Source of the DNA: a bacterium
Lineage (GTDB): Bacteria; JAJVIF01
NCBI GenBank assembly: GCA_022072165.1
Contig: JAJVIF010000001.1
Location: forward strand, 833,353-897,352
DNA length: 64,000 nucleotides
Direction of reading: 5' to 3'
Below the pieces are notes generated by a model. That model did no database searches. It saw only the letters and a list, made by a program, of their open reading frames with translations, and had not been told where the DNA came from. Made by a program: the position numbers and the translations under genes. Positions 27,072-45,623 of this stretch are shown here, in pieces (position 1 is the first letter of the stretch; each line of letters opens with the position of its first letter).

Positions 27072-28685
27072 CTACTTGCCCGCACGGGGAGTCATCGAGG
27101 GCTGCAGGCCATGGACTACCGGCGCGTAGACCGCGTTCAGTGCTTCCTGGACCTGCTGGTCCGGGAGGCTGGGACCGGGGAAGTAGCGCGCTTGCCCATT
27201 CCAGCGGGACGCCCGATACGCCATGTTGTAGATGAGTCCGGGCATGAGGCCGAGGACCAACAGCCAGACCATCACAGCCCGGGCTGCCAGACGTCCGGGA
27301 GCGGGTTCAGTGAGGGAGAGTTGCGCTTGTTCCGGCTCGAACCAGATAGCGACAATCACCCGCAGGTAGTAGTAGACACTCAGGACGCTGGTGAGGACCC
27401 CGAAGACGGCAAGATTGATGAATCCAGCACCGACCGCCGCATGAAAGACATAGGCCTTCCCGAAGAATCCAGCCAGGGGCGGGATCCCGGCCAGTGAGAA
27501 GAGGAGGATGGTGAGGGTCGTCGCCCAGCCAGGATGTCGCTGTCCCGCGCCGGCGAGATCGCTGATTTCCCAGCGTCCTTCCTTCCCCTGCAGCCAGGCG
27601 ATGAGCCCGAACGCCGCCACAATGGTAACCAGATAGGTCGACATGTAGAAGTAGATGGCGCTTTTTGCGAGGACCAGCGTCTGGAGCGAACTCATTGCCA
27701 GGATCCCCAGCAACAGATACCCGGCGTGGGCCACGGAGGAGTACGCCAGCAATCGTTTCAGATTGGTCTGGGCGAGGGCCTGCAGATTACCCAGGAGCAT
27801 GGTGGCGCCGGCGACGAGCGTCAGGCAGGCGGGCAGCGCGGATGGAAGCCCCGTGAAGAAGGGACCCGCCAGTTGCATCAGCGCGCCAAAGGCACCGACT
27901 TTCGCCAGTGCGGCCATGAGGCCGACCTGGCTGTCCGGCGCGCCTTCGTAGACATCCGGACTCCATGCATAGAACGGAAGAAGGCCGCCTTTGAAGAGAA
28001 GTCCTGTGAGGACCATGATGGCTCCGACTCCATACATACGGGAGTCGATCCTGGCGGTGTACAGCTGGTCGTACTGCACCGACCCGACACCGGCGTAGAT
28101 CAGGGCCATGCCGAAGACCATGATCGCCGAGGCGAGGGATCCCAGAATCAGGTACTTCAGTCCCGCTTCCCGGGACCGGCTGCTGTCCTTCCGCAGAGCG
28201 GCGAAGGTGTAGAGGGGCAGGGACAAAAGCTCCAGACCCAGAATCAGCACCAACAGGTGGGAGGCCTCTACCATGATGATGGCGCCCATGGCTGCGATCA
28301 GGGAGAGGGCGTAGAACTCGCTCCGTACGGCGGTCCAGATCTGCCGATGCCAGGTGAAGAGGTACCCCACTAACAGCGTGCCGAGGATGATGCCCCGCAG
28401 GATGCCGGTCCCTGCATCAATCGCCAGGAGTCCATCGAAGGCGACGAAATGGAGGTCATCCGGGGCCAGCTGCACATGCAGGGCAACATTGGTGAGCAAG
28501 GCGAGGATGACTGTCAGCAGGGCCACCAGCGCTTCGGTCCGGCGACGGACCGGCGGACTCGCCAGGGCCTCGATGGCGATGATCATGATGGCCCCGACCG
28601 CGAGCATCAGCTCCGGGACAATCATCTGCAGGGAACCGGTCAGCTCAATGAGCTGGGTAGGCGTCAGCACCGGGGAGTTATTCAT
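27072..28685 (-). CDS. nuoN: NADH-quinone oxidoreductase subunit N
   Basis: 537 aa. An antiporter-like membrane subunit of complex I that pumps protons. About 14 membrane segments. Diagnostic parts are LLGLELLSLPLYTF-like LILGLELLSLPLYTF, the KGGLLPFYAWSPDVYEGAP block with its lysine, TNLKRLLAYSSVAHAGYLLLG and GIPPLAGFFGK. The ATG at 28685 overlaps the end of nuoM by 8 nt, so translation is coupled. Last gene of the operon. Confidence 0.95.
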   Translation of the reverse strand: MNNSPVLTPTQLIELTGSLQMIVPELMLAVGAIMIIAIEALASPPVRRRTEALVALLTVILALLTNVALHVQLAPDDLHFVAFDGLLAIDAGTGILRGIILGTLLVGYLFTWHRQIWTAVRSEFYALSLIAAMGAIIMVEASHLLVLILGLELLSLPLYTFAALRKDSSRSREAGLKYLILGSLASAIMVFGMALIYAGVGSVQYDQLYTARIDSRMYGVGAIMVLTGLLFKGGLLPFYAWSPDVYEGAPDSQVGLMAALAKVGAFGALMQLAGPFFTGLPSALPACLTLVAGATMLLGNLQALAQTNLKRLLAYSSVAHAGYLLLGILAMSSLQTLVLAKSAIYFYMSTYLVTIVAAFGLIAWLQGKEGRWEISDLAGAGQRHPGWATTLTILLFSLAGIPPLAGFFGKAYVFHAAVGAGFINLAVFGVLTSVLSVYYYLRVIVAIWFEPEQAQLSLTEPAPGRLAARAVMVWLLVLGLMPGLIYNMAYRASRWNGQARYFPGPSLPDQQVQEALNAVYAPVVHGLQPSMTPRAGK

Positions 28686-30462
28686 TGGTCCCCTCCCCTG
28701 CCGGCTGATCGGCATCTGCGGCTTCGTCGCTCACCGGCGATTCCGGATCCGCCACGGGTTCAGTGTCTGTTGGAGTATCGATCGGCTCAGCGTCAGTGGT
28801 GGCAGCAGCGTCACTGGCGGATTCCCCGGACGCAACCGCATCCGTAACCTCAGCCGCATCTGTCTCCACTGGAGCAGCATCGGCAGGCTCGGCCGTCGGT
28901 GTAACTGCGGCTTTGGGGGCAAGTCGGCCAGGGATCTGACCAAACTCGTTGGTGGTGCTGAAGGCGATCAGATGCGAGATGCTCGGCCCCATGCTGCGGG
29001 TCACGACTGGAGAGAAGAGCCCCAACAAAACCATGAGGGCGAGGAGCGGCACGATGGCTGTCAGTTCGCCTGGTGTCAGATCGGTCAGCCGGGCATTGGC
29101 GCTGGTGGCATCGACTTTTCCGAGGAAGACTCGCTGGTAGAGCCAGAGCATGTAGATCGCGCCCCAGATGACGCCCGTCACCGAGAGGATCATCCACTCC
29201 CGACTCTGCTGGGCGACACCCATGAAGATCATGAACTCGCCAGGGAAGCCGTTGAGCCCTGGTAGTCCAATGCTCGCGAACAGAGTGATCCAGAAACAGA
29301 TCGCAAAGACCGGCATCACCTGGATGATGCCGCGAAACTCCGCAATCTCCCGGGTATGTCGGCGGTCGTACAGGAACCCGACCAGCATGAACAATGCCCC
29401 GGTCGTGATGCCGTGGTTGATCATCTGGAGCGTCGCGCCCGTGGCTCCGATTTCGTTGACCGCCAGGATCCCCAAGACCACGAAGCCCATGTGACTTACC
29501 GAGGAATACGCCACCAGTCGCTTGATGTCGGTCTGCGCCGCAGCAATCCAGGCGGCGTAGATGATGCCGATGATCGCCAGCGCAGCCAGCCAGGGAGCCC
29601 AGGCCGGAGTCGCCAGCGGAAACAGCGGCAGATTGAATCGGAGGAGCCCGTAGGTCCCCATTTTCAGCAGGACACCCGCCAACAGGATTGACCCCGCAGT
29701 AGGAGCGTCGGTGTGGGCGTCTGGCAGCCAGGTGTGGACCGGGAAGAGCGGCACTTTGATGGCGAAGGCCAGCGCGAACGCTCCAAAGAGCCACCACTGC
29801 TGCCCCGCAGTGAGCGATGTGATGCCGGGATCGGTCAGGAGGATGGTGTAGTCAAAGGACTTCGAAGCCGACACATGCCAGAGGGCGAAGATGGCGACCA
29901 GCATCAGCAGGGAGCCGATCATCGTGTAGACGAAGAACTTCATCGCGCTGTTAACCCGGTGCTGTCCTCCCCAGATGCCGATGAGGAAGTACATCGGAAT
30001 CAGGACCGCTTCCCAGAAGAGGTAGAAGAGGATCAGGTCCAGCGCGACAAAGACCCCAATCAGCGCGGTCTCCAGCCCCAACAGAAGCATGAGGAACTGC
30101 CGATAGCGCTTCGGCGTGTCCACCCCATGAGTCGAGCGAATCGCCAGTGGCATCAGGAGGGTCGTGAGGAGGACCAGCCAGAGGCTGATGCCATCAACCC
30201 CGACTTTCCAGGTCGCGCCCAGCCCGGGAATCCAGGGGTAACTTTCCACCAGTCGGAAGCCTGCCCCGCTGTCGCCAGAGAAGGTGAAGAGGAGGCCGAG
30301 GCTCGCGAGGAAGGTCAGGACCGCCGAGAGCTGGGCAGTCAGGAAGTGCTGCGGGTTGTTTTCCGATTTCTGAAAGTAGAGCGCCGCCACTCCAAGGAGG
30401 GGGAGCACCAGCAGGATGCTGATCCAGGCGGTTTGCACGTCGGTGCCGGGGGAGGCAGGCAT
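28678..30462 (-). CDS. nuoM: NADH-quinone oxidoreductase subunit M with long acidic tail
   Basis: 594 aa. Antiporter-like proton-pumping subunit: YLFWEAVLIPMYFLIG, KVPLFPVHTWLPDAHTDAP, GTYGLLRFNLPLF, DIKRLVAYSSVSHMG and LNGFPGEFMIF are all standard. After the last membrane helix the chain continues for about 78 residues (517-594) of Ala, Asp, Glu, Pro and Thr with about one lysine and over 20 acidic residues (for example AEPIDTPTDTEPVADPESP). Such a tail is not part of the usual subunit. It begins 5 nt after the nuoL stop. Confidence 0.95.
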   Translation of the reverse strand: MPASPGTDVQTAWISILLVLPLLGVAALYFQKSENNPQHFLTAQLSAVLTFLASLGLLFTFSGDSGAGFRLVESYPWIPGLGATWKVGVDGISLWLVLLTTLLMPLAIRSTHGVDTPKRYRQFLMLLLGLETALIGVFVALDLILFYLFWEAVLIPMYFLIGIWGGQHRVNSAMKFFVYTMIGSLLMLVAIFALWHVSASKSFDYTILLTDPGITSLTAGQQWWLFGAFALAFAIKVPLFPVHTWLPDAHTDAPTAGSILLAGVLLKMGTYGLLRFNLPLFPLATPAWAPWLAALAIIGIIYAAWIAAAQTDIKRLVAYSSVSHMGFVVLGILAVNEIGATGATLQMINHGITTGALFMLVGFLYDRRHTREIAEFRGIIQVMPVFAICFWITLFASIGLPGLNGFPGEFMIFMGVAQQSREWMILSVTGVIWGAIYMLWLYQRVFLGKVDATSANARLTDLTPGELTAIVPLLALMVLLGLFSPVVTRSMGPSISHLIAFSTTNEFGQIPGRLAPKAAVTPTAEPADAAPVETDAAEVTDAVASGESASDAAATTDAEPIDTPTDTEPVADPESPVSDEAADADQPAGEGTNE

Positions 30463-30467
30463 GGTGG

Positions 30468-32705
30468 TTATCCCCTCCCCTGCTGGCTGACGAGCCAGCC
30501 GATAAAGAGGAGGGCGACCAGCCCCGCCACGATGTAGAAGGCATAGAGCCGCAGGTAGCCGCCCTGCAGTCGGCGGGACTCCCGGCCGAAGGCAAGCGCG
30601 ACTCGTCCGCTCCCCTCCACGACGGTGTCGTCGATGAAGCCTTCATCGACACCCTTCCAGAGGGCATCAAACATGCGCATTCCCGGCCGGATGAAGAGCG
30701 CGTGATAGGCCTGATCGACCTTCCAGGCCTGGGACGCGAGGGCATACCACGTCGCCCACTGCTGTTTGTATCTGGCGGTCTGCGAAGGGTCAGTACCCCA
30801 AATGGAGCGTGCCAGGCTGATCCCGGCCAGTGCCAGGAGGGTGGAGATCAGATAGAACGGCCAGCTGTTGCCCCAGGTCGCATGCGGCAGGGCGATGGTT
30901 TTCGGCAGCAGGTCAGTCTCGCCATGCGTTTTGTCGTCGTGATGGTCATCCCCGTGATGATCCGCCCCCGCAGCCAGCGCGGCGGGCCCCCACAACGGCG
31001 TGTGCCCCGGCAGGGCGCGAGTCTGAAGAGCGATTACCTGCGCCTTGTGGACCACGGGAGCCAGATAGTGCTCGAACGGCATGAATACCGGGGCGAACAT
31101 CAGAAATCCACTGATGAGCGCGAGGCTCCCCAGCACCTGTAACGGCGCGATCATCGGCAGCGGCGATTCCAGGGATCCGTATGGTTGGTGGTGGGCTGCT
31201 GCACTGTGCGGGTCCGAAGCTGGCACACCACGCCAGGAACCGTGAAAGGTCAGGTAATACATCCGGAACATGTAAACCGCCGTCAGGAACGCGGTGACAT
31301 AGCCGAGGAGGATGACCAGCAGGCGGACCGTATCGGGCGCGAAGGGGTAGATCCAGCTTTCATGCAGGATGGCGTCTTTGGAGAAGAACCCGGCGGTCAG
31401 CGGGAATCCAGCGATGGCCAGACAGCTGACCAGCATCGTCCAGTGCGTCACCGGCATCCGCTCTTTTAGGCCGCCCATGTGACGCATGTCCTGCACCACG
31501 GCGGGGTCATGGGAGCCTGTCTCGTGTTCCATGCCGTGGATCACGGACCCCGCCCCCAGGAAGAGACAGGCCTTGAAGAAGGCATGGGTCATCAGGTGGA
31601 AGATCGCCGGAATGAAGGCCCCGAGGCCTGCTCCGATGAACATGAAACCGAGCTGCGAGATGGTGGAGTACGCCAGCACCCGCTTGATGTCGTACTGGGT
31701 GAGCGCGATGGTTGCGGCAAAAAAGGCCGTCAGCGCTGCGACGATTCCGATGACCGCCATCGTAGTGGGGCTCATCAGGAAGAGGAAGTTGGAGCGGACC
31801 ACCAGGTAGACACCGGCGGTCACCATAGTCGCGGCATGAATGAGGGCCGAGACTGGGGTCGGCCCCTCCATGGCATCAGGGAGCCAGACAAAGAGCGGAA
31901 TCTGCGCGCTCTTGCCGCTTGCTCCCAGGAAGAAGCAGAGGGTGATGGCCGTGACCAGCGCGAGAAGTTCGCCCCTGAGCAGGTAGTTTGAAGAGGTCAG
32001 CAGTTCCATCGCCCGGGGCAGGATGTCGGTGTACGCAGCAGTGATTTGCCCGGCGGCGTTCTGCCCAATGGGGCTGGCCAGGAGCAGTACCAGTCCGGTC
32101 ATGAAGAAGAAGTCCCCGACCCGGTTGACCAGGAAGGCTTTCTTGCCCGCCTGAGTCGCGGACCACTTCTCGTAGTAGAAGCCGATGAGGAGATACGAGG
32201 CGAGCCCGACTCCTTCCCAGCCCACAAACATCAGGACATAGTTGGCCGCCAGCACCAGCACCAGCATCAGACCGGTGAAGAGGTTGAGGTAGCTGAAGAA
32301 CCGGCTGTAGCCCAGGTCATCAACCCGCTTGCCATGACCAGCTGCGGGCTGATGGTGACCGTGGTCCGCTGGCTGATGCGGCGCCATGTACGCCGTGGCG
32401 TACCAGTGAATCAGGCTCCCGACCCCGGTGACGATCAGGGACATCACCAGGCTGAGCTGATCCAGCTGCAGGGCAAAGTCGATCGCAAGGGGTCCCGCGC
32501 TGATCCAGGGGAAGTAGGTGAAAACCAGGGGCTCAGTCAGGTGGAGATGACTGAGGAAAAGGATCAGGGTACAGAGAAAACTGCCAGCCACGGTCCCGAC
32601 CGCGATGGTCGCGACCTGGGAGGGGCGGAGTCCTTTAAACAGCCCCAGCACCACAAACCCCAACAGGGGCAGCAGCGGGATGCTGAGGGCCAGTACCTGA
32701 TCCAT
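30468..32705 (-). CDS. nuoL: NADH-quinone oxidoreductase subunit L with His-rich loops
   Basis: 745 aa. The distal proton-pumping subunit with the long lateral helix near the C-terminus. Markers are GWEGVGLASYLLIGFYY, KSAQIPLFVWLPDAMEGPTP, VSALIHAATMVTAGVYL, DIKRVLAYSTISQLG and LTAGFFSKD. Two hydrophilic loops are rich in His: residues 109-125 (five His) and 581-596 (ADHHGDDHHDDKTHGE). These could bind metal ions, but that is inference. About 130 nt of structured spacer separates it from nuoK. Confidence 0.95.
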   Translation of the reverse strand: MDQVLALSIPLLPLLGFVVLGLFKGLRPSQVATIAVGTVAGSFLCTLILFLSHLHLTEPLVFTYFPWISAGPLAIDFALQLDQLSLVMSLIVTGVGSLIHWYATAYMAPHQPADHGHHQPAAGHGKRVDDLGYSRFFSYLNLFTGLMLVLVLAANYVLMFVGWEGVGLASYLLIGFYYEKWSATQAGKKAFLVNRVGDFFFMTGLVLLLASPIGQNAAGQITAAYTDILPRAMELLTSSNYLLRGELLALVTAITLCFFLGASGKSAQIPLFVWLPDAMEGPTPVSALIHAATMVTAGVYLVVRSNFLFLMSPTTMAVIGIVAALTAFFAATIALTQYDIKRVLAYSTISQLGFMFIGAGLGAFIPAIFHLMTHAFFKACLFLGAGSVIHGMEHETGSHDPAVVQDMRHMGGLKERMPVTHWTMLVSCLAIAGFPLTAGFFSKDAILHESWIYPFAPDTVRLLVILLGYVTAFLTAVYMFRMYYLTFHGSWRGVPASDPHSAAAHHQPYGSLESPLPMIAPLQVLGSLALISGFLMFAPVFMPFEHYLAPVVHKAQVIALQTRALPGHTPLWGPAALAAGADHHGDDHHDDKTHGETDLLPKTIALPHATWGNSWPFYLISTLLALAGISLARSIWGTDPSQTARYKQQWATWYALASQAWKVDQAYHALFIRPGMRMFDALWKGVDEGFIDDTVVEGSGRVALAFGRESRRLQGGYLRLYAFYIVAGLVALLFIGWLVSQQGRG

Positions 32706-32758
32706 AAGTGCGTCGACTCCTCGTCCGCCAGCGGCTTCCCGCGAAGGGAATCCGCCGG

Positions 32759-32837
32759 TCCGCCCGGGTGACGCCAGCGGGCGGAGGGTGTGTGGGGACT
32801 ACCGATGCCTCTGCGCCAATCTGCAGGCGGCGCAGAG
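32759..32837 (-). other. stem-loops in the nuoK-nuoL spacer
   Basis: The only long gap in the nuo operon (32706-32838) holds two clear inverted repeats: TCCGCCC / GGGCGGA (32759-32765, 32779-32785) and a perfect 9-bp CTCTGCGCC / GGCGCAGAG (32809-32817, 32829-32837), which abuts the nuoK stop. Neither has a T tract, so mRNA processing or stabilisation is more likely than termination. Confidence 0.5.
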
Positions 32838-32838
32838 C

Positions 32839-33168
32839 TTACCCGTGCAGTTCGTGGAGTTCATCCACATCGGCACGGGGGGTTGCTTTAAAGATCATGA
32901 CCACCAGGGCGAGGCCCACACCGACTTCGGCGGCAGCAATCGCCATGATCATGAGGGCGATCACCTGCGCCTCCAGGTGGAGCCCGCCATACATCCGGGC
33001 ACTGGTCACCAGAGCCAGATTGGCGGCGTTCAGCATGAGCTCGATGCTCATCAGCACCACCAGCGGATTCCGTCGCAGCAGGACGCCGGCGAGGCCAATG
33101 ATGGCGAGCAGCGTACTGATGATCAGCAGGCAGGACTGGGCGGTGGGAGCAGGCAGGAGGGTTGGCAT
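32839..33168 (-). CDS. nuoK: NADH-quinone oxidoreductase subunit K
   Basis: 109 aa, three membrane helices; matches the MrpC-like subunit. Typical parts are GLAGVLLRRNPLVVLMSIELMLNAANLAL with the conserved membrane Glu in IELMLN, and VIALMIMAIAAAEVGVGLAL with the second Glu. Ends EELHELHG-like DELHELHG. Separated by 24 nt from nuoJ. Confidence 0.95.
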   Translation of the reverse strand: MPTLLPAPTAQSCLLIISTLLAIIGLAGVLLRRNPLVVLMSIELMLNAANLALVTSARMYGGLHLEAQVIALMIMAIAAAEVGVGLALVVMIFKATPRADVDELHELHG

Positions 33169-33192
33169 AGGTCAGTTCGTCACGAGCCCGGG

Positions 33193-33741
33193 CTAATGCG
33201 CGGTCGTGGAGCCCTCCAGTTCCTCGGGATCGAGGTCAAAATTGGGTTCCGGCTCAGCTTCCCGTGTCAGGTAGATCGCGGCGACCAGGGAGACCAGCAG
33301 CAGGAGCCCCGCCAGCTGGAAGAGGTAGATGTACTTGCCCAGCAGGATGCCGCCGATCCCTTCCGGGGTGCCATCGACCGGCATCATGCGCGGCGCGAGG
33401 GGAAAGCGGATAAGCATCTGCTGTAGCCCGAGCCCCAGGGCGATCAGGAGTCCCAGTCCCCACGGGCGCATCCAGGCCAGGGCATCGGCGGCCAGGGGCG
33501 CAACTGGAAAGTTCATCATCGCCAGCAGAAAGAGGACGACAATCGCTCCCGCGTAGACCACCAGCTGCACGAAGCCGACGAACGGCGCGGCGAGCAGGAG
33601 ATAAATCAGTCCCAGGGTCACCATCGTGACGAGGAGGCCCAGGGCGGCACGAATGGGGTCGCGGTGCAGCACCATCGACAATGCTCCGGCAATCGCCAGG
33701 ACACCCAGGAGGAACAGGACCGCGACTTCCAGCCAGCCCAT
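33193..33741 (-). CDS. nuoJ: NADH-quinone oxidoreductase subunit J
   Basis: 182 aa with five predicted membrane helices. The segment FVGFVQLVVYAGAIVVLFLLAMM contains the pi-bulge helix that takes part in coupling. It ends in a short acidic tail (NFDLDPEELEGS). The ATG shares one base with the nuoI stop (TGATG), so it is translated with it. Confidence 0.95.
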   Translation of the reverse strand: MGWLEVAVLFLLGVLAIAGALSMVLHRDPIRAALGLLVTMVTLGLIYLLLAAPFVGFVQLVVYAGAIVVLFLLAMMNFPVAPLAADALAWMRPWGLGLLIALGLGLQQMLIRFPLAPRMMPVDGTPEGIGGILLGKYIYLFQLAGLLLLVSLVAAIYLTREAEPEPNFDLDPEELEGSTTAH

Positions 33742-34253
33742 CAGAAGCCCATCCCCCCGACGTACAGATTTTCGCCGAAGCCCTGATCCGCCTTCACCAG
33801 CAGATCGTCCTTATGGACAATGAACTTGTCCCGACGATCCATGGCGAGCTCGTAGTTCTGTTTCAGGACGACGGCTTCCACAGGGCAGGCATCTTCGCAA
33901 AAGCCGCAGAAGATGCAACGGAGCAGGTTGATTTCGTAGGTTTTGGCGTAGCGCTCGCCGGGACTCACGGGATGCGCCGGGTCGTTTTCAGCCGCTTCCA
34001 CAAAGATGGCATCAGCGGGACAGGCCGCCGAACAGAGATGGCAGCCGACACAGCGCTCCAGCCCATCGGCATAGCGCTGGAGCACATGCAGCCCCCGATG
34101 TCGCAGTGCGACGGGCTTTTTCTGCTCGGGATACTGATAGGTAACTGCCGGACCCCAGAAGTGCCGGAAGGTGGCACCCATGCCCGACAAAATGGCTGAA
34201 ATCGCAGGACCTGCCTCACGCCAAAAGGCGCGGGCATCGTCGCGGATGGTCAT
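33741..34253 (-). CDS. nuoI: NADH-quinone oxidoreductase subunit I (two 4Fe-4S clusters)
   Basis: 170 aa. Carries the N6a and N6b clusters that pass electrons towards NuoB. Two ferredoxin motifs are seen: CVGCHLCSAACP and CIFCGFCEDACPVEAV. The N-terminal amphipathic region and YPEQKKPV agree with the family. The ATG overlaps the stop of the HEAT-like gene (ATGA), an unusual neighbour inserted between nuoH and nuoI. Confidence 0.96.
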   Translation of the reverse strand: MTIRDDARAFWREAGPAISAILSGMGATFRHFWGPAVTYQYPEQKKPVALRHRGLHVLQRYADGLERCVGCHLCSAACPADAIFVEAAENDPAHPVSPGERYAKTYEINLLRCIFCGFCEDACPVEAVVLKQNYELAMDRRDKFIVHKDDLLVKADQGFGENLYVGGMGF

Positions 34254-35851
34254 GTACCCGGTCCTCCTGTGGCGGTGGTGGCCCGACTCCGGGCGGGATA
34301 CAGGGCGCTCATGCGCCCCAGTCCTGGCACGGGCCAGATGAGACGACTGGCCGGCGGCTGACTCGGCTGGGCGGTGGGATCCGCCAGGGCGATCGCCACG
34401 CCGGCAGCATAGGCTGCCAGCCCGGGCTGGGCCGCCGAGTAGTTGCGATAGTAGCGCACGAGGCTTGGCAGACTGGCAGGGTCCATCAGCCGTCCCAGGC
34501 CCTGGAGACAGGCATACTGCACCCGCACCGGCGGGTCGGGACTATTCAGGATGTTTATCAGTTCCGTCGCTACCGCCGGATGATCCAGTTCCGCCAGCGC
34601 ATTCAGCGCCACGATGGTTTCTCGCCGCCACTGATGATCGCTCGTGCGGGACCGAACGGCCGCCAGCAGCCGCTCCAGCGCCGGGGCGTGTCCCAGCCGG
34701 GCGAGGGTGAGCTGCACGAGGTAGTAATCCTCATCCCCCTGCTGCGTCCCGGGCTCCAGCAACGGGATGAAGCGCTGCGGATCGGCCCAGAGATGGAGTT
34801 TCTGCAGAATCCGCCCCCGGGCGTCGTACTCATTCAGCACGACCTGAATTTCGACATCGCTCAGCGGGAGCCCCAGGAGCCCGAGGGCCTCCAGCGCCTG
34901 CCCCCGAATCGTGGGGTCCGGAGACTGCATCAGCCCCCTCAGTTCGGGTTCCCAGTCGGTGCGATTCAGTTCCTTCGCCATCCCCGTCACGATGATGCTC
35001 GGCAGCATCCGGGAAGGGTCCAGCCCCTTGCGCAAGAAGCGGTCGACGGAGTCCTTGTTGATTCCGGCGGCATAGAGCACTTTCGCGGCGTGATAGGGCG
35101 GCGACTGCTCAGGATCACCGTTGAAGATCGCCGCCAACTCCTCGGTGAAGTGCTTCGCCCCGAAGCGCTCTGCCAGCCGGACCCCCTGGATGTTGGCGAT
35201 CACATCGTCAGCGGCTGTGAGCTTTTCTTTGATGATTGCTTTCGTGGCGGGGAATTGCCGTCGTGCCAGCGCTTCGATGGGCGTGGCATCAGTGATGAAT
35301 TCCTGCCGCGGACGGAACGCCATCTCGTGCAGTTCGCTGCGACGCCAGAGGTCATCCCACGCCATATACGGCTCGAGGATGGCGGTCGTGTCCGCTTCCT
35401 GCTGAAACGACAACTGCTGCAGCGCCATCATGACGACCTGCTTATCGGCATCCTTCAACGCGGCTTCCAGCCGAGGCCTGGCGATGCCCCAGGGGACGTT
35501 AATGAGTCCATCGACCGCCAGATAGCGATCTGCCATGTCCTTATCCTGCAGCGCTGAATCAATAGCGCTCAGGGCTTCCTGGATAGTGGTCGCATTCACC
35601 AGCGCTGTGGTTTCGCCGACCGTTTCCAGTGTCACCGGACCAACCGGCCCCAGGTCAGGGACATCGGCGACGTATCCATCCGGGGACTCCGGCACAACTT
35701 CATCGGTGGCAGTGACCCGTCCACCTGAAGGATCTTTGGTCGCGCCGGGTGGTGGATTTTTCTTGCAGAATCCTCCGCTGCTCCCCTGCGCGAGGATGAG
35801 GACCAGGGCCAGCGAGCGCCCCAGGATCATGCCGCGGTGTCCTCTAGGCAT
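34250..35851 (-). CDS. exported HEAT-like repeat protein inside the nuo operon
   Basis: 533 aa from the ATG at 35851, which overlaps the nuoH stop by 8 nt (ATGCCTAG); its own stop overlaps the nuoI start (ATGA). The N-terminus has arginines, a hydrophobic run (SLALVLILAQGSSGG) and Cys, so it is exported and perhaps lipidated, though the lipobox is poor. A Pro/Asp/Glu-rich linker is followed by helical HEAT-type units such as RGQALEALGLLGLPL, RRETIVALNALAELDHPA and VQYACLQGLGRLMDPA. These are scaffolds for protein contacts. Tight coupling on both sides argues for a role in complex I assembly or stability, but this is inferred. It is not a standard Nuo subunit. Confidence 0.8.
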   Translation of the reverse strand: MPRGHRGMILGRSLALVLILAQGSSGGFCKKNPPPGATKDPSGGRVTATDEVVPESPDGYVADVPDLGPVGPVTLETVGETTALVNATTIQEALSAIDSALQDKDMADRYLAVDGLINVPWGIARPRLEAALKDADKQVVMMALQQLSFQQEADTTAILEPYMAWDDLWRRSELHEMAFRPRQEFITDATPIEALARRQFPATKAIIKEKLTAADDVIANIQGVRLAERFGAKHFTEELAAIFNGDPEQSPPYHAAKVLYAAGINKDSVDRFLRKGLDPSRMLPSIIVTGMAKELNRTDWEPELRGLMQSPDPTIRGQALEALGLLGLPLSDVEIQVVLNEYDARGRILQKLHLWADPQRFIPLLEPGTQQGDEDYYLVQLTLARLGHAPALERLLAAVRSRTSDHQWRRETIVALNALAELDHPAVATELINILNSPDPPVRVQYACLQGLGRLMDPASLPSLVRYYRNYSAAQPGLAAYAAGVAIALADPTAQPSQPPASRLIWPVPGLGRMSALYPARSRATTATGGPGT

Positions 35852-36905
35852 GGGGGACCACCTCCGTTGACTGGGCTCTTGAAGGCTGCCCGGTCGGGCT
35901 GGCGGGGGGACCAATGATCGCGAAGATGACACTCAGGAAAAGGATGTAGACCAGAGTCACAGGAAGGAGAACTTTCCAGCCGAAAGCCATCAGCTGGTCA
36001 TAGCGGAACCGGGGAAGAGTCCCACGCACCCAGACGAAGAAGAACATGAAGATCGTGAGCTTGAGCACCAGATAGATGGGACCCAGCCACGGATAGGTGT
36101 CGACCAGGGGTCCCCGGTAGCCGCCGAGGAAGAGCGTGATGGCGAGCGCACTGATGGTGATCATCGCGGCGTACTCGGCGAGGAAGAACATCGCGAACTT
36201 CATGCCGGTGTACTCGGTGTGGAAACCGGCTACCAGTTCGCTTTCGCACTCTGGCAGATCGAAGGGGGCGCGATTCGTCTCCGCCAGCGCGGTGATCATA
36301 AAGATGACCAGCAGGGGAAACGCCAGGATGTACCACCACCAAAGGCCCCGCTGGGCTTCAACAATGGTCGTGAGTTCCATGCTGCCTGCCATGATGACGG
36401 CACCGACCACGCAGAGTCCCATAGCGAGTTCATACGAAATCATCTGGGCGCTCGCCCGCAGCGCACCGAACAGACTGTACTTGTTGGCGCTCGACCAGCC
36501 CGACAGCACCACGGCATAGACCATGATCGAACTCAGGGCCAGGATGACCAGAATCCCCACGCTCAGGCCAGAAACCGCCAGCGGGATCTGGTACCCGTTC
36601 CAGACAATGGGTGGTCCGAAGGGAATCATGCTGATGCCCGCCAGCCCGCAGGCGACGGAGATCACCGGGGCCAGAGTGTGGATGCGCCGGTCGGCTCTGG
36701 CAGGGACGACATCCTCTTTGAGCATCAGCTTGACGCCATCGGCCAGGGGCTGCAGCAGCCCCCGGGGACCGACACGATTCGGGCCGATGCGATCCTGGAT
36801 CCGGGCGATAACAATCCGCTCGAACCAGGTCATGTACGCCGCGCCCCCCATGACAATCAGGAAGGCAAGCAGGGCTTTCACCAGGATGACCAGCGCCAGT
36901 TCCAT
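35844..36905 (-). CDS. nuoH: NADH-quinone oxidoreductase subunit H
   Basis: 353 aa. Membrane subunit that forms the quinone chamber with NuoB and NuoD. Typical parts are RIQDRIGPNRVGPRGLLQPLADG, the SANKYSLFGALRASAQMISYE block, ETNRAPFDLPECESELVAGF, HTEYTGMKFAMFFLAEY and a RFRYDQLMAFGWKVLLP segment. Starts one base inside the nuoG stop (TAATG). Confidence 0.96.
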   Translation of the reverse strand: MELALVILVKALLAFLIVMGGAAYMTWFERIVIARIQDRIGPNRVGPRGLLQPLADGVKLMLKEDVVPARADRRIHTLAPVISVACGLAGISMIPFGPPIVWNGYQIPLAVSGLSVGILVILALSSIMVYAVVLSGWSSANKYSLFGALRASAQMISYELAMGLCVVGAVIMAGSMELTTIVEAQRGLWWWYILAFPLLVIFMITALAETNRAPFDLPECESELVAGFHTEYTGMKFAMFFLAEYAAMITISALAITLFLGGYRGPLVDTYPWLGPIYLVLKLTIFMFFFVWVRGTLPRFRYDQLMAFGWKVLLPVTLVYILFLSVIFAIIGPPASPTGQPSRAQSTEVVPHA

Positions 36906-39436
36906 TAGTGGGTCAGGACCTCCTCCGGCTGCGCTGAGGTCACCTTATCGACCCGCACAGCCAGAACGCCCTGGTCCATCCGGCCCAGGGTCGCCAGGCG
37001 ACCAGCTTCATGCCCCGCATCGACCTCGATGTAGCCCTGCGGGATGCCCCGGGTGAACGCTACCGGTCCGGTCAGGTGGCCAGCACTGGTGGAGAGCGAA
37101 ATAGTGTCGCCGACTTTCATGTTTCGACTGCGTCCATCCGATGGATGCATCCGAATCGCCCAGGGGGTGATGAGTTCCTTCACCGCCGGGCTGTGGTCCA
37201 GAAGAGTACCGGGCTGGTAGAACGGGCGGCGCGTGATCAGGCAGAGTTCCTGCGGACCGCAACCCGGTCGCGGTGATTCCACCAGCGCCCGGATAGTCGG
37301 GATGCCATCGTTACCGGTGGGCTGATACCAACTGTCCACGACCGCAGTGACTTCGTGCAGTCCCTTGAGCCCCGGAACCCGACTCAGGTGCGCGATCAGC
37401 GCTTCACGTCGCGGAGCTAGCGTCTGATTGCAACGGAGGCCGATTTCCGCGCTCCACTCAGTGATCGACCGCACCTTCGACGCCGGTGGTGTCATCCCTC
37501 GGACGCTCTCCTGCAGGCGACCCTCCGCGTTGATGTAGCTTCCACTTTCCTCATATTGGCTCGTGAGCGGGAAGACCACATGGGCATGGTTGGTGACTTC
37601 GTCCAGGAAGTGGGCAGCCGCAATGAAGCATTCCAGCTGCTCCAGTCCTTCAATCGCTTCGGCGGACCACTGATGCCCATGGTCGCCCCCGACCAACAAG
37701 AGAGCACGCAGCGCGCGAGTTGCAATCCGCTCCTGGATTCCCCGTACATCGGCACCGACCGGTCCGCGCTTATCCCATCGCGGCTGCAACCCGAGCGCCA
37801 GACATCCGATGCTGTTGGCTGCAGGCACCGCCAGCAGGAGTCCCAGTGGCTTACCTCGGCCCGCTTCGCGGAGCCGGATCACCAGCTCCAGCAGTTCCAG
37901 ACGTCGCGGGTCCTGCAACAGGATCGACTGTCCGATCACCAGCACGGCATCATCAGCCCGGAACCACTCCGCCAGATCGGCGACTTGCCCCGGATCGGCC
38001 GGTGGCAAGTCCACCCGGAGAAGAGCTTCTTTAGCCTGTGTCAGTGCCGCCTGCAAATCTCTTGAAGGCGAAGATTTCCGGGCAAACTCTTCGGCGAGGG
38101 CGAGCAGGAGACTTTCCTGCGCCAGGTGAGTCAGCGAGGCTTCCTCGATAAAGGGATAGCGACTCTGCAGCGTCCGGACGGTGGAGACCGACCGGACTTT
38201 GGCCGCATTTTTCGCGCCCCAGACACCTGGCACCTGGCTCATCCGGCTTTGCTTCAGGCGCAGGGCCAGCATCGGGAGTTCATCAAACAGATGGCTGTCC
38301 CAAAGGAGCAGATGCTGGGAGTCCACTACCTGCTGGAACGGCACCAGCCGATTTAGAAAGTACTGACTTTGCGCGGGGGTGGTCTGCACTGGCGGCCAGT
38401 GATCGACATGCGGGACATCGAATGCCGCCAGGAGCGCCTGGACGGCCCCCAGGTCTTCCAGCGATCGCTCTGCTCCCAGCACGGCGGCCACCTGATGGGA
38501 CCCTGGGTTCTGGCTGATGCGGGTCAGCTGCTGGGCGCTGAAAGCGATCGCCTCTTCCCAGCTGACTGGCTCGAGTCGCCCGTTTTTGCGGAGGAGCGGT
38601 TCGGTGACGCGCTCCGGATGATCCTTGTACTCGTGGGAGAAGCGACCTTTGTCGCAAATGTAGGGGCCGTTGAGGTCAGCTTTCTCGCGACTGAAAATCC
38701 GGACCACGTTGTTCGCCCGGACATGCAGCGTGTTGGCACAACCCATCGCGCAGTCGTTGCAGACCGAGGGCTTTTCCTTGATTTCCCATGGACGCGCCCG
38801 GAAACGGAACACGGAATCGGTCAGCGCACCGACCGGGCAATACTCGATCACTTCGCCGCCGAAGCGGGAGTTGAACGGCTCATCAGTCTGCGTGCTGATC
38901 TCGGTGTGTGCCCCGCGCTCGCGGAAGATCAGCCGGTCATCATCGGCGATTTCCTCGGTGTACCGGACACAGCGCTTACAGAGGATGCAGCGGTTGTAAT
39001 CGAGCTTGATGGTCGAGGAGAGGTCGAAGTGATGATGGAAACGCTTGACATCGATGACCCGGGAGTCTTCCCGGCCATACAGGAAGGTTTGGTCCTGGAG
39101 TTCGCACTCGCCTCCCTTGTCGCAAACCGGGCAGTCCAGGGGATGCGAGACCAGGATGAACTCCAGCACCCCTTCCCGGGCGAGGCGGACTTTTTCCGTG
39201 GCGGTATGCACCACCATCCCTTCCCCGACCGGTGTTGAACAGGCGGTAGCCAGTTTCGGCATCTTTTCGACATCCACCAGACACATCCGGCAGCCAGCGT
39301 AGGGCACCAGGTGGGGATGCGAGCAGAAGCGGGGAACGTAGGTCCCGATTTGCGCACAGGCATCGATGAGGAGCGTCCCTTTGGGGACATTCACTGCCTG
39401 TCCATCGATGGTCAGATTCACCGTCTCGGGTGCCAT
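36905..39436 (-). CDS. nuoG: NADH-quinone oxidoreductase subunit G
   Basis: 843 aa. The iron-sulfur subunit of the peripheral arm. The N-terminal 2Fe-2S domain shows CSHPHLVPYAGCRMC. Next come HPLDCPVCDKGGECELQDQ, CILCKRCVRYTEEI, and CNDCAMGCANTL in front of the molybdopterin-type domain, which no longer binds a cofactor in complex I. The C-terminal part (INAEGRLQESVRG, then a MopB dinucleotide-like barrel) follows. Starts 28 nt after nuoF. Confidence 0.95.
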   Translation of the reverse strand: MAPETVNLTIDGQAVNVPKGTLLIDACAQIGTYVPRFCSHPHLVPYAGCRMCLVDVEKMPKLATACSTPVGEGMVVHTATEKVRLAREGVLEFILVSHPLDCPVCDKGGECELQDQTFLYGREDSRVIDVKRFHHHFDLSSTIKLDYNRCILCKRCVRYTEEIADDDRLIFRERGAHTEISTQTDEPFNSRFGGEVIEYCPVGALTDSVFRFRARPWEIKEKPSVCNDCAMGCANTLHVRANNVVRIFSREKADLNGPYICDKGRFSHEYKDHPERVTEPLLRKNGRLEPVSWEEAIAFSAQQLTRISQNPGSHQVAAVLGAERSLEDLGAVQALLAAFDVPHVDHWPPVQTTPAQSQYFLNRLVPFQQVVDSQHLLLWDSHLFDELPMLALRLKQSRMSQVPGVWGAKNAAKVRSVSTVRTLQSRYPFIEEASLTHLAQESLLLALAEEFARKSSPSRDLQAALTQAKEALLRVDLPPADPGQVADLAEWFRADDAVLVIGQSILLQDPRRLELLELVIRLREAGRGKPLGLLLAVPAANSIGCLALGLQPRWDKRGPVGADVRGIQERIATRALRALLLVGGDHGHQWSAEAIEGLEQLECFIAAAHFLDEVTNHAHVVFPLTSQYEESGSYINAEGRLQESVRGMTPPASKVRSITEWSAEIGLRCNQTLAPRREALIAHLSRVPGLKGLHEVTAVVDSWYQPTGNDGIPTIRALVESPRPGCGPQELCLITRRPFYQPGTLLDHSPAVKELITPWAIRMHPSDGRSRNMKVGDTISLSTSAGHLTGPVAFTRGIPQGYIEVDAGHEAGRLATLGRMDQGVLAVRVDKVTSAQPEEVLTH

Positions 39437-39464: not shown

Positions 39465-40862
39465 TTAACTCACGCCTGCCGGCAGGGCAGACACAGTCCC
39501 ATGCTGCGGTAGCAGCGCTGGTCCTGCAGTCACCCAGGGCTGGGGAGTCAGGGGATAGTACTGTCGGATGTAGGCGTGGGCTCCATGCCCCTGCACGAGG
39601 CAGGAGCCAGGATGCAGGATGTGGTGTTCGAATTCTTCCCGCCAGCGCTTGATGGTCGACTGCACCGGCCAGGATGCGGCATCCCCGAAGGGACAGAAGC
39701 TCTTCCCCTCAATGTTCGACGCCGCCGCCACCAGGATATCGAGATCCTCCAGCTTGCCTTCCCCTATGAGAATCCGCCGAAGCATCCGTTCGATCCACCA
39801 GGTCCCCTCAAAGCAGGGGGTGCACTTGCCACAGGATTCATGCTGGAAGAATTTGGCGAGTCGCCAGACCCCCTCAACGATACAGGTGGTCTCATCCATC
39901 GGCATCACTGCACCGGAGCCGAGCATCGTGCCGGCATTTCGCAACGCCTCGTAGTCGAGGGGGACATCCCAGTGCTCCGGACCGAGCCACTGGGAGGAGC
40001 CGCCACCCGGCATGACCGCCTTGAAGGCGCGTCCATGACGCATCCCCTGCCCGTAATCGTTGACGAAGGTCGAGAGCGGGATCCCGAGAGGTACTTCGTA
40101 GTTCCCCGGACGATTCACGTGTCCGGAGAGCGAGAAGATCTTGGTGCCAGGGGACTTCTCAGTCCCGAAGCTGGTGTACCAGGCAGCGCCGTAGCGAATG
40201 ATGGCCGGGACCGCCGCCAGGGTCTCGACATTGTTGATGGTGGTCGGCATCCCGAACGCCCCTGCCTGCGCCGGGAACGGCGGCTTCATACGGGGATGTC
40301 CTCGCTTGCCATCCAGGGAGTCAAGAAGCGCGGTCTCTTCACCACAGATGTAGGCTCCCGCGCCGCGATGCACCACGATGTCGCAGGACCAGCCGCTGTT
40401 GAGGATGTTCTCCCCCAGCAGTCCAGCCTCGTAGCACTCTTTCACTGCGTTCACCACGACGTGGTATTCCTTCCACATCTCGCCCCGGATGTAGATGAAC
40501 GCCTTGTTCGCCCGGATCGCGTGACACCCGATCAGGATGCCCTCGATCATTTTGTGCGGGACCTTTGACAGGATCTCGCGGTCTTTGCAGGTGCCCGGCT
40601 CCCCTTCATCGGCGTTGATCACCAGATAGTGCGGTTTGCCGTCCTCTTTGGGCATAAAGGACCACTTGAGCCCGCAGGGGAAGCCTGCGCCTCCACGACC
40701 CCGCAGGCCAGAAGCCTTCACGACCTCGATGACCTGATCCGGATCGTTCTCCGCCAACACCTGCCGCAGGGACTCGTAGGCCCCGTATTGCCGGGCGACA
40801 CCGAGAGTGTGGCTGCCAGGGATGTCGCGGTACTCAAAGATGGCGAGGCTCGGCTCAGGCAT
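39465..40862 (-). CDS. nuoF: NADH-quinone oxidoreductase subunit F (NADH/FMN site)
   Basis: 465 aa from the ATG at 40862, which overlaps the nuoE stop (ATGCCTGA). The longer frame is not needed. GRGGAGFPCGLKW and the NADH/FMN-binding loop YLVINADEGEPGTCKDR are present, as is GAGAYICGEETALLDSL. The N3 cluster motif ESCGKCTPCFEGT is followed by a distant Cys in SFCPFGDAA. The last 35 residues extend beyond the usual end. It oxidises NADH and passes electrons to the iron-sulfur chain. Confidence 0.96.
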   Translation of the reverse strand: MPEPSLAIFEYRDIPGSHTLGVARQYGAYESLRQVLAENDPDQVIEVVKASGLRGRGGAGFPCGLKWSFMPKEDGKPHYLVINADEGEPGTCKDREILSKVPHKMIEGILIGCHAIRANKAFIYIRGEMWKEYHVVVNAVKECYEAGLLGENILNSGWSCDIVVHRGAGAYICGEETALLDSLDGKRGHPRMKPPFPAQAGAFGMPTTINNVETLAAVPAIIRYGAAWYTSFGTEKSPGTKIFSLSGHVNRPGNYEVPLGIPLSTFVNDYGQGMRHGRAFKAVMPGGGSSQWLGPEHWDVPLDYEALRNAGTMLGSGAVMPMDETTCIVEGVWRLAKFFQHESCGKCTPCFEGTWWIERMLRRILIGEGKLEDLDILVAAASNIEGKSFCPFGDAASWPVQSTIKRWREEFEHHILHPGSCLVQGHGAHAYIRQYYPLTPQPWVTAGPALLPQHGTVSALPAGVS

Positions 40863-42165
40863 TGTTCGCCTCCTCGTCACGCGGAGCTTCCGCCGGGGCC
40901 TCAGGCCCCTGCAGGAATCGCAGGTATGGATTTTCAGGCTGCCAGGTGGGCAGGTCCGGAGCCGTTTCAAGATTGAGCTGCGGCTCGGGCGGACCGACCG
41001 GTTCCGGCTCTGGGTCTGGTACCGGAGCGGGCTCAGCCGCCTCGACCGTTGCGTCTCCATCAGCGGCAGACTCATGGAGCGTCTGGCCGGGGACCAGCCG
41101 AATCAACGGAGGGGCGGCAGAGCCGATGCGCTTGCCCGGCTCCAGCACAGAGAGGTCGACTGGCGCGGCATCAACTGCCGGCTCTTCTTCGGGTTCGGGT
41201 TCGGGCTCGGGCAACGGCGGACGAACCACAGTGAGCTTGGTTGCTTCCAGGAACTTTGCCCGCTCCCGGGCTTCCACTTCAGCCAGCTTCTTTGCATCCG
41301 CCGCCTCGGACTCAAGCCGCAGGGCTTCGCGCTCTGCCGCCCGCTTTGCCGTACGCTCGGCCTCGATGCGTGCCGCATCGGCTACTGCCTGACGCTTCGC
41401 TTCTTCGGCGGCCTGGATGCGGGCGTAGGCCTCCGCCTCGGCCTTCAGCGCAGCCGCAGGGGGTGGTGCATCCGGCGCAGCAGCGATGACCGCGGACGAT
41501 GGGACTTTCGGAGCGGATGGCGCAGCCGCTGGGGCAGACGGTGTCGCGGGGGCTGCCGGTGCGGAGGGCTTGGCTGCTGCTGCTCCCGAGCGGGGCTTGA
41601 TTTCGGCGGGTGTCAGGGGAGCCAGGGGCTCGAAGGCGACGGAACCGGCCCACTCAAGGGGATTGGGCTCCGCCCCAGGACCCGGATGGGTCCCTCCCTG
41701 CCGGTAGTGCGCGATGATCCGGTCGACCTGCTCGATAGTGACCCGCTGGTAGTACTCCCTGTCGCTGATTTGCAGACAGGGGCCGGTATCACAGGCCGCG
41801 AGGCATTCCACTTCCATCAGGCCGAACTGGCCATCCGGCGTCACCTCGCCCGGCGCGATGCCGAGCGTGTTGCGGAGGTGTTCGAGGACCGGATAGGCCC
41901 CCTCCACCATACAGGAGACATTGGTGCAGAGCTGAAAAAGGCACTTTCCCTGCGGCTTGGTGTAGTACATCGTGTAAAAGCTGGCGACTGACTCGACCTC
42001 CGCAGGGTCGAGGTTGAAGAGGTCTCCCAGCTCCGCAAAATCCTCTTTGGCCAGGAACCCTTTCTCTTCCTGGGCGGCATGCAGGGCCATGAGGAGCGCT
42101 CCCCGCTTTTGCGGGTACCGCTGCTGGAGGGCGAGAATCTGGTCGACAGTCTGTTCGCTCAGCAT
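40855..42165 (-). CDS. nuoE: NADH-quinone oxidoreductase subunit E with a long coiled-coil tail
   Basis: 436 aa from the ATG at 42165, 2 nt after the nuoD stop. Residues 1-160 are a normal NuoE thioredoxin-like 2Fe-2S subunit: VASFYTMYYTKPQGK, then Cys80, Cys85, Cys121 and Cys125. The other 270 or so residues are extra. They form an Ala/Pro-rich linker (190-240), a charged alanine-rich helix resembling TolA (239-311, for example AERTAKRAAEREALRLESE with many K/E pairs) and an acidic proline segment (PEPEPEPEEEP). Usual NuoE is about 160-240 aa. The tail stays in frame to a stop that overlaps nuoF, so it is not a sequencing artefact by appearance. Confidence 0.93.
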   Translation of the reverse strand: MLSEQTVDQILALQQRYPQKRGALLMALHAAQEEKGFLAKEDFAELGDLFNLDPAEVESVASFYTMYYTKPQGKCLFQLCTNVSCMVEGAYPVLEHLRNTLGIAPGEVTPDGQFGLMEVECLAACDTGPCLQISDREYYQRVTIEQVDRIIAHYRQGGTHPGPGAEPNPLEWAGSVAFEPLAPLTPAEIKPRSGAAAAKPSAPAAPATPSAPAAAPSAPKVPSSAVIAAAPDAPPPAAALKAEAEAYARIQAAEEAKRQAVADAARIEAERTAKRAAEREALRLESEAADAKKLAEVEARERAKFLEATKLTVVRPPLPEPEPEPEEEPAVDAAPVDLSVLEPGKRIGSAAPPLIRLVPGQTLHESAADGDATVEAAEPAPVPDPEPEPVGPPEPQLNLETAPDLPTWQPENPYLRFLQGPEAPAEAPRDEEANNA

Positions 42166-42167
42166 CG

Positions 42168-43448
42168 TTAGCGGTCGATCTCCCCCAGGACGATATCGAG
42201 ACTGCCGATGATAGCCACCAGGTCGCTCAGCAAATGGCCGAGGCCGATCTTTTCGATGACCTTGAGATTCACGAAGGATGGTGGCCGGACTTTGCAGCGT
42301 CGCGGACGCTCCGTGCCATCGCTCACCAGCCAGAAACCGATCTCCCCCTTGGGGGCCTCGATGGCGACATAGACATCTCCCTTGGGAGGAGCATAGCCGG
42401 AGGTGTAGAACTTGAAGTGCCGAATGAGCGCTTCCATGCTCTCGTGGATGCGCTCCCGAATCGGTGCGACATAGAGCGGATGCTCGCACCGGTACGGTCC
42501 CGTGGCGCTGGCGAGTCGCTGATGGGCCTGTTCGCAAATGCGATGCGACTCCTGCATCTCCATCAGGCGGACCCAGAAGCGGGCGTAGACATCCCCGTCG
42601 GTACTGGTGGGGACATCGAAGTTGTAGGTGTCGTACCCCAGGTACGGATTGGATTTGCGCAGGTCGGTGATGACTCCACTGGCCCGGGCAATCGGCCCGG
42701 TCAGGCCGTAGTCCAGCACATCCTGTTCAGTGATGATCCCGATCCCTTTGGTCCGGGCCACCCAGATCGGATTCTTCTCCAGCAGGAGCCGCAGTTCCGC
42801 ATAAGCCGCAGGGAACTGCCTGAGGAACTTGCCGCTGCTTTCAAGAAAACCCTCTGGGAGGTCCTTCGCAAGGCCGCCTTCCTGAATAAAGGAAGTCATC
42901 ATCCGGACGCCGGAAGCCATCTCGAAGAGGTCGAGGATCTGTTCCCGTTGGATCATGGACCAGAGGAAGGGGGTCGTGGCTCCCAGGTCGATGGCGCTGG
43001 TCCCCAGCCAAACCAGGTGACTGGCGATCCGCTGGAGTTCGATGAGCAGGACCCGGGCATAGATGGCCCGTTCAGGAGGGGTCACGCCGCAGAGCTGCTC
43101 GACCGCCCCGATGTACGCCATGTTGTTCGAGAGGGGGGCGAGGTAGTCCATGCGATCAAAAAGGGTGATCGCCTTGTGGTAGGTCTCTTTCTCGGCGGTT
43201 TTCTCGATGCCTGTATGCAGGTAACCCAGGTGCGGAATGATGTCGGTGACGATCTCGCCATCGACCGTGATTTCCAGGCGGAGCACCCCGTGAGTGGAGG
43301 GATGCTGCGGGCCCATGTTGACCACCATCGTGCCGTCTTCGCCGACCTGTACGCCAAGTGGCCCCTCGACTGGGTCGAGGGCCGACGCCACCAGGTCCGG
43401 GGAGGTCTCCCCGCGTCGCTTCACCACCATGTCTACCTGTGCTGTCAT
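42168..43448 (-). CDS. nuoD: NADH-quinone oxidoreductase subunit D
   Basis: 426 aa from the ATG at 43448; a GTG at 43472 is possible. The 49-kDa-type subunit lining the quinone site: GPQHPSTHGVLRL with the key His residues, PHLGYLHTGIEK, ETYHKAITLFDRMDYL, a DLGATTPFLW segment, and the C-terminal DIVLGEIDR. About 35 residues precede the conserved core. A ferritin-like gene stands 46 nt upstream, between nuoC and nuoD. Confidence 0.95.
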   Translation of the reverse strand: MTAQVDMVVKRRGETSPDLVASALDPVEGPLGVQVGEDGTMVVNMGPQHPSTHGVLRLEITVDGEIVTDIIPHLGYLHTGIEKTAEKETYHKAITLFDRMDYLAPLSNNMAYIGAVEQLCGVTPPERAIYARVLLIELQRIASHLVWLGTSAIDLGATTPFLWSMIQREQILDLFEMASGVRMMTSFIQEGGLAKDLPEGFLESSGKFLRQFPAAYAELRLLLEKNPIWVARTKGIGIITEQDVLDYGLTGPIARASGVITDLRKSNPYLGYDTYNFDVPTSTDGDVYARFWVRLMEMQESHRICEQAHQRLASATGPYRCEHPLYVAPIRERIHESMEALIRHFKFYTSGYAPPKGDVYVAIEAPKGEIGFWLVSDGTERPRRCKVRPPSFVNLKVIEKIGLGHLLSDLVAIIGSLDIVLGEIDR

Positions 43449-43494
43449 AGCCTCGTTTCCGCTCTCTCGCACTCAGTCTGACTGTCGCCCGCCT

Positions 43495-43929
43495 TTACTC
43501 CGGGCGACGCAGCAGCTTTTCGATGTCTTCTATGTGGGCCGTTTCTTCGATGATGATGGAACGGATCAGGTCTTCCAGCGCAACATCCGCCGGGTCAATC
43601 AGCGGCAGCAGATCCTGATACTTGCGGAGGGCTTCCCGTTCAGACTGCAGGTTTTCCTGGAACATCTGTTCCCAGGTATGTACCCCAGGATCTTCCACCG
43701 GATGGACGAGCGTCGTCGGGTGGCCTCCCAGCGCCGTGATTTTTTCGCCCAGCATCGTGGCGTGGGTCATCGCTTCCGTGGCCTGCGTGCGATAGTAGTC
43801 CCGGATGCCAAACCGGTTGGGGCCGAAGACCATGAAGGAATGATGCAGATACCGCACCATCGCTGTCATTTCATAGGCCAGCAGGTCGTTGAGTCGTGCG
43901 AGCAGCGCTTCGCCTGTCAGATACGTCAT
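43495..43929 (-). CDS. ferritin-like diiron protein between nuoC and nuoD
   Basis: 144 aa from the ATG at 43929, 2 nt after the nuoC stop. A four-helix bundle with bacterioferritin-like ligands: Glu20 (AYEMTAMVRY), Glu52 with His56 (TEAMTHA), a Glu in helix 3 (LQSEREALRKY) and EETAH near the C-terminus. The helix-2 pair is spaced ExxxH instead of the usual ExxH, so the iron site may differ. Such proteins store iron or detoxify it with oxygen or peroxide. Its place inside the nuo operon suggests a link to iron supply for, or protection of, the eight or more clusters of complex I (inference). Not a known complex I subunit. Confidence 0.85.
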   Translation of the reverse strand: MTYLTGEALLARLNDLLAYEMTAMVRYLHHSFMVFGPNRFGIRDYYRTQATEAMTHATMLGEKITALGGHPTTLVHPVEDPGVHTWEQMFQENLQSEREALRKYQDLLPLIDPADVALEDLIRSIIIEETAHIEDIEKLLRRPE

Positions 43930-43931
43930 GG

Positions 43932-44561: not shown

Positions 44562-44594
44562 GTCGCGAGCCTCCTTTCGTTCGGGCGGTACAGG

Positions 44595-45594: not shown

Positions 45595-45623
45595 ATTATA
45601 GGGATGTCGGTCCGGCTTGTGAA
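45595..45623 (-). promoter_or_regulatory. nuo operon promoter
   Basis: Minus strand: TTCACA (45618-45623; 5 of 6 to consensus), exactly 17 bp, then TATAAT (45595-45600; perfect). This is the best sigma-70-type promoter in the window. Transcription should begin near 45588, leaving 0-11 nt before nuoA. Confidence 0.75.

Follow-up and report, generated by a model that had tools for sequence, protein, structure and literature searches.

What does a gene for a helical-repeat protein do between nuoH and nuoI, and is its product a partner of complex I or a neighbour in its operon? The question is raised by a stretch of 64,000 nucleotides of bacterial DNA (lineage JAJVIF01; contig JAJVIF010000001.1 of assembly GCA_022072165.1), referred to here as the window. 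On the minus strand the window carries a complete nuo operon (op1), from nuoA (45577) to nuoN (27072), with 14 nuo genes and two extra genes. One of the extras is a ferritin-like gene between nuoC and nuoD; the other, between nuoH and nuoI, encodes a protein with HEAT repeats (below, the HEAT gene and the HEAT protein). The features of op1 are as follows.

45595..45623, minus strand: promoter-like site TTCACA-17-TATAAT before nuoA, 11/12 match
39465..45577, minus strand: nuoA, nuoB, nuoC, the ferritin-like gene, nuoD, nuoE and nuoF, upstream of nuoG
43495-43956, minus strand: ferritin-like gene (PF00210, E 1.6e-25)
36905..39436, minus strand: nuoG (TIGR01973, 508.9 bits)
35844..36905, minus strand: nuoH (PF00146, NADHdh, E 2.8e-120), sharing 8 nt with the HEAT gene
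35851 (ATG) to 34250 (end of stop codon), minus strand: HEAT gene, open frame of 533 aa
33741..34253, minus strand: nuoI (TIGR01971, 136.7 bits against a cut-off of 113), ATGA overlap with the HEAT gene
27072..33741, minus strand: nuoJ, nuoK, nuoL, nuoM and nuoN, downstream of nuoI, with PF00361 at the places of nuoL, nuoM and nuoN

Within op1, nuoA to nuoD and nuoF were named by translation and order, nuoE by PF01257, and nuoJ and nuoK by ORF order and translation. The presence of the ferritin-like gene means that op1 is not confined to nuo genes. The promoter-like site is the sole good match near the start of op1; the scan as a whole returned 3 sites against 2.8 expected in shuffles, so that the site by itself is no evidence. 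No minus-strand promoter-like site was returned between nuoG and nuoI. The op1 NuoE (40855-42165, minus strand) is 436 aa long; its domain ends at about residue 154 and is followed by a long C-terminal tail rich in Ala, Pro and Glu.

The initial annotation had described a 533-aa protein between nuoH and nuoI, translationally coupled to both neighbours, and the coordinates bear this out: the HEAT gene overlaps nuoH by 8 nt (35851-35844) and nuoI by the ATGA at 34253-34250, on a strand, left unnamed at the time, that is the minus strand. The plus strand at 34250-35851 contains internal stops. A Shine-Dalgarno-like GGAGGT lies just 5' of the HEAT gene ATG and an AGGAGG 5' of the nuoI ATG, and these ribosome-binding-like sites and the two overlaps are those of a gene co-translated with core subunits. 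An alternative start at M8 (35830) is possible. Short overlaps are customary in op1, for example between nuoG and nuoH and between nuoI and nuoJ, and the HEAT gene is not special in this respect. A chance open frame is ruled out by the HEAT profile matches, the codon usage and the length of the frame, the probability of 533 open codons by chance being about 5e-7 at the base composition of the gene. Its third-position GC is 0.75, and its codon-usage score (0.258) compares with 0.139-0.389 for the nuo neighbours and with at most 0.112 for its own five other frames. With codon usage resembling that of the nuo genes, the HEAT gene can be regarded as a settled resident.

Helical HEAT-like repeats had been proposed from the letters of the sequence, and the Pfam scan agrees. 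HEAT_2 (PF13646) matches the HEAT protein in three stretches with 66.9 bits against a curated cut-off of 27.7 (E 2e-18), and the HEAT_PBS, HEAT_EZ and HEAT profiles also exceed their cut-offs. The protein is laid out as follows.

Residues 1-23: signal-like segment
Residues ~30-88: acidic linker rich in Pro and Gly, pI 4.2
Residues ~90-490: helical repeats

When modelled with AlphaFold2 without relatives, the full-length protein came out all-helical, at a pLDDT of 44.7 that is too poor to use. Residues 290-495 modelled alone gave a chain of helices with a pLDDT of 72 and a pTM of 0.59, the last third reaching about 87. Foldseek returned no match to this partial model in the PDB at E ≤0.001. Designed alphaRep/HEAT proteins made up most of the top ranks, none of them better than E 0.0076; deoxyhypusine hydroxylase stood at rank 20, and the ranks between held many poor 14-3-3 matches. 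A PDB search with the sequence of the HEAT protein found two alphaRep designs and nothing else. Thus, on the model, the fold class of the HEAT protein appears HEAT-like, with no specific relative found.

The N-terminus of the HEAT protein is likely export-like and resembles a signal peptide, as judged by eye and from hydropathy alone. A basic n-region (R3, H5, R6, R12) is followed by the hydrophobic stretch LALVLILA and a possible cleavage site, AQG, at residues 21-23; hydropathy peaks at 2.1 in the 15-residue stretch that starts at residue 7. On these features the export signal of the initial annotation still appears likely. A lipoprotein reading was rejected, as C29 is preceded by GGF and there is no canonical lipobox. 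The window also contains the following gene.

47069-48304: LptF/G gene

The presence of LptF/G suggests that the cell is probably diderm, and an exported HEAT protein would hence be periplasmic.

The source genome (3.26 Mb, 4 contigs) was compared with three relatives from the same phylum (G001, G002 and G003). A second copy of NuoH is encoded on contig C4, with nuoI and nuoB nearby (op2), and antiporter-type subunits were found at C4:205-209 kb and on C2. In a NuoH tree the op2 copy falls together with those of the three phylum relatives (SH-aLRT 99). The op1 NuoH sits on a long branch in a poorly resolved group (support 82), together with Chloroflexota, Armatimonadota, Bacillota and one Vulcanimicrobiota row. 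The tree comprises 87 rows and was made with a quick method whose program warns of long branches. As judged from the NuoH sequences, op1 is not the phylum's usual complex I copy, and op2 is of the phylum's own type. The operon op1 was probably imported, from a source that the tree does not indicate. The op2 NuoI (L102:6721-8298, minus strand) has 525 aa and carries a C-terminal tail in which about four similar repeats centre on the motif RKASxLSxDERK.

Alignment of the NuoH proteins of the phylum's own complex I revealed large inserts, with positions and sizes read relative to the op1 NuoH.

L100:2068-4395, plus strand: NuoH of G003, 305-aa insert after residue 104
L099:1770-3944, minus strand: NuoH of G001, 309-aa insert after residue 104
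L101:6826-8565, minus strand: NuoH of G002, 97-aa insert (51+46) around residues 186-190
L102:9153-11474, minus strand: op2 NuoH of the source genome, 137-aa insert (54+83) around residues 186-190

The same NuoH proteins have C-terminal additions as well. Pfam detected NADHdh alone in the NuoH of G003 and G002, and NADHdh with one match below cut-off (E 0.042) in the op2 NuoH. The topology of the inserts was obtained by counting helices by hand from the GPN-containing loop after TM1, which is described as lying on the matrix (cytoplasmic) side (PMC9696053). By this count both insert sites should fall in periplasmic-side loops. Among the best 80 of 584 confirmed NuoH candidates, the matches extend to about 372 aa at most and show no insert of this size, although single-segment matches are biased against showing inserts. 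The inserts in the phylum's own enzyme suggest that decoration of the outer face of complex I may be tolerated in this lineage.

Our preferred reading, to which we give a probability of about 0.4, is that the HEAT protein is an exported HEAT scaffold acting on the outer face of the op1 complex I, where it would probably assist assembly or stability. It is favoured by co-translation, by the retention of a 1.6-kb gene in the core operon and by likely export. Protein binding is the general role of HEAT repeats. The HEAT protein would be made together with op1, a second complex I of the cell, and after export the acidic linker would tether or space the helical-repeat solenoid in the periplasm. The solenoid would then bind the membrane arm on its outer side; the most plausible place is close to NuoH, which is translated just before the HEAT protein. 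Once bound, the HEAT protein would help the assembly or stability of the probably imported op1 enzyme.

Homologues of the HEAT protein were searched for in other genomes. None was present in the three phylum relatives: G002 and G003 gave no match, and G001 gave two short stretches only (E 0.02 and 0.16). Among 384 further genomes, 3 matched at E ≤1e-6 with partial, generic HEAT similarity (29-34% identity); at E 0.001, 6 of 58 other genomes matched. The protein was found in none of the 35 genomes behind 35 of the 80 named nuoH loci described below, a search without a positive control. With regard to an arrival of the HEAT gene with op1 from a Chloroflexota-like source, a homologue was found in 0 of 400 genomes from the phylum of the Ardenticatenia (Chloroflexota) MAG G401, and in 0 of 18 from another phylum, that of G140; the one genome for G034 had none either. 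Each of these searches was without a positive control. In the larger searches (384 and 400 genomes) three candidates were scored per genome, and no plasmid-borne relatives were found. Among the genomes searched, a single one has this arrangement, and the proposal that it is lineage-specific holds in that no counterpart beyond generic HEAT similarity was seen. With one genome only, comparison lends no support to the complex I assembly factor or accessory subunit suggested in the initial annotation.

The nuoH-nuoI junction itself was analyzed in other genomes. In the nuo loci of all three phylum relatives nuoI follows nuoH and the HEAT gene is absent (3/3). The initial annotation had named such absence from near relatives as a refutation of its interpretation. 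As a test it is weak, because the NuoH of these operons is of another lineage; as op1 is not the phylum's usual copy, comparison with the relatives does not show whether the HEAT gene has long accompanied op1. Two wider sets were derived from NuoH matches. The first, the named loci, is made up of the best 80 among 584 confirmed candidates, and 41 of these 80 have nuoI downstream, in 40 cases at most 375 nt away. The other, from a Thermoflexales MAG (L038), has nuoI 936 nt from nuoH with a HEPN gene between them. In 39 of the best 80 (within L019-L098), many of them Acidobacteriota, no nuoI was matched in the stretch covered and nuoJ directly follows nuoH. The second set holds 72 same-contig junctions, derived from 149 NuoH and 149 NuoI rows among the matches listed, with the window's own row excluded. 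Among these matches listed, 69 of the 72 junctions span at most 354 nt and three exceed 1 kb, one with a UbiA-family gene (G061) and two with nuoG. The nuoG of G098 was recognised from a translation closely resembling that of the scanned nuoG of G236, and both nuoG cases were counted as gene order and not as insertions. The genes of other families at this junction are the following.

L038:2475-3008, plus strand: HEPN gene (PF05168) between nuoH and nuoI of the Thermoflexales MAG, on the same strand
L102:8691-9143, plus strand: HEPN gene (PF05168), antiparallel, between nuoH and nuoI of op2, the second complex I of the source genome
L115:4916-5857, minus strand: UbiA-family prenyltransferase gene inside a G061 nuo operon, where the nuoH and nuoI matches stand 1059 nt apart

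No HEAT gene was found at any of the 72 junctions among the matches listed or the 41 among the best 80 of 584, which rules out the HEAT gene as a general, conserved member of nuo operons. Across related genomes the gene is thus not kept with the nuo genes, being absent from the three phylum relatives and from the 72 and 41 junctions, in a sample with no phylum relative of the op1-type nuo lineage.

These data bear directly on a reading that we consider nearly as likely as an outer-face partnership with complex I. The HEAT protein could be a co-expressed passenger, exported to an envelope job of its own, whose gene came to lie between nuoH and nuoI without a physical tie to complex I. Unrelated families sit at this junction in several lineages: the HEPN gene of L038 occupies 1 of the 41 named junctions, the UbiA-family gene of G061 1 of the 72 listed ones, and the antiparallel HEPN gene of op2 stands at the same place in the same genome. 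Position at the junction alone is hence no proof of a functional tie. The ferritin-like gene of op1 and the usual short overlaps of that operon point the same way. In addition, the genome encodes further HEAT proteins, at least two in number, that have export-like N-termini and lie at a distance from nuo genes.

L122:3769-4782, minus strand: HEAT protein of 337 aa, export-like N-terminus
L123:3021-4766, minus strand: HEAT protein of 581 aa, export-like N-terminus with a lipobox-like LVGC

However, the HEAT gene overlaps both neighbours and its codon usage is settled, which suggests that co-translation with nuoH and nuoI has long been selected for and speaks against a passenger. Should the HEAT gene be one, the locus would serve as a caution against reading a role in complex I from operon position alone.

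Two further readings concern what the exported protein would do, or whether it is exported at all. HEAT solenoids are usual docking surfaces and the mature HEAT protein is acidic (pI ~5.2), so that it might act not in assembly but as a periplasmic docking protein that links complex I with some other complex of the respiratory chain or the envelope; this is inference only, and improbable. Least probable is a cytoplasmic or inner-membrane-anchored HEAT protein, with the hydrophobic segment as an uncleaved anchor or no signal: the hydrophobic core is short (~8 residues) and a lipobox is lacking, but the basic residues before the segment, the AQG after it and the linker ahead of the repeats fit a normal signal peptide.

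The outer-face role preferred here can be set in a wider frame, which we regard as unlikely but worth stating. Complex I in this phylum might carry lineage-specific modules on its periplasmic face, as NuoH inserts of 97-309 aa in the phylum's own enzyme and, in the op1 enzyme, as the separate exported HEAT protein. Together they would form an outer-face layer that serves stability or docking and does not figure among the accessory subunits of the cited work.

How would such a protein compare with known systems? It resembles HEAT_2/HEAT_PBS proteins (PF13646, PF03130) in its repeats, which score above the cut-offs, and in its all-helical model, and differs from them in the export-like segment and linker, in its place in a nuo operon and in that no full-length relative was found. 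Through its repeats it also gives weak NCBIfam matches to HEAT proteins of the phycobilisome lyase/NblB type (20.0 and 16.3 bits). Identity as an NblB/CpeY lyase was rejected, since these scores are far under the equivalog cut-offs of 300 and 600 bits, respectively; membership of the adenylosuccinate-lyase family was likewise far under cut-off. A full-text literature search, to which subscription papers are mostly outside coverage, returned no HEAT protein tied to nuo genes.

The N-module is the cytoplasmic arm of complex I. The nuo operons of Paracoccus denitrificans and Rhodobacter capsulatus have been described with extra reading frames too, the majority of which do not encode complex I subunits. 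Accessory subunits of bacterial complex I include NDUFS4, NDUFS6 and NDUFA12 in P. denitrificans, with protein L-isoaspartyl-O-methyltransferase as a further Paracoccus subunit, Nqo15 and Nqo16 in Thermus thermophilus (PMC11522691) and A9 in Mycobacterium smegmatis (PMC12361115). S4, S6 and A12 are discussed in connection with N-module assembly (PMC11522691). As a candidate, the HEAT protein would share with these subunits the character of a lineage-limited extra beyond the 14 core subunits. It would differ in that none of them is described as a HEAT protein in the passages cited, and in its site: the accessory subunits are mostly discussed there with the N-module side, whereas the HEAT protein, if it binds complex I, would act as an accessory factor of HEAT type on the outer side of the bacterial enzyme. 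A parallel in place is the P. denitrificans complex I, which has periplasmic extensions in loops of ND4, ND2 and ND5 (PMC11522691). These extensions add mass to the outer face, as the HEAT protein would; they are parts of core subunits, whereas the HEAT protein is encoded by a separate gene.
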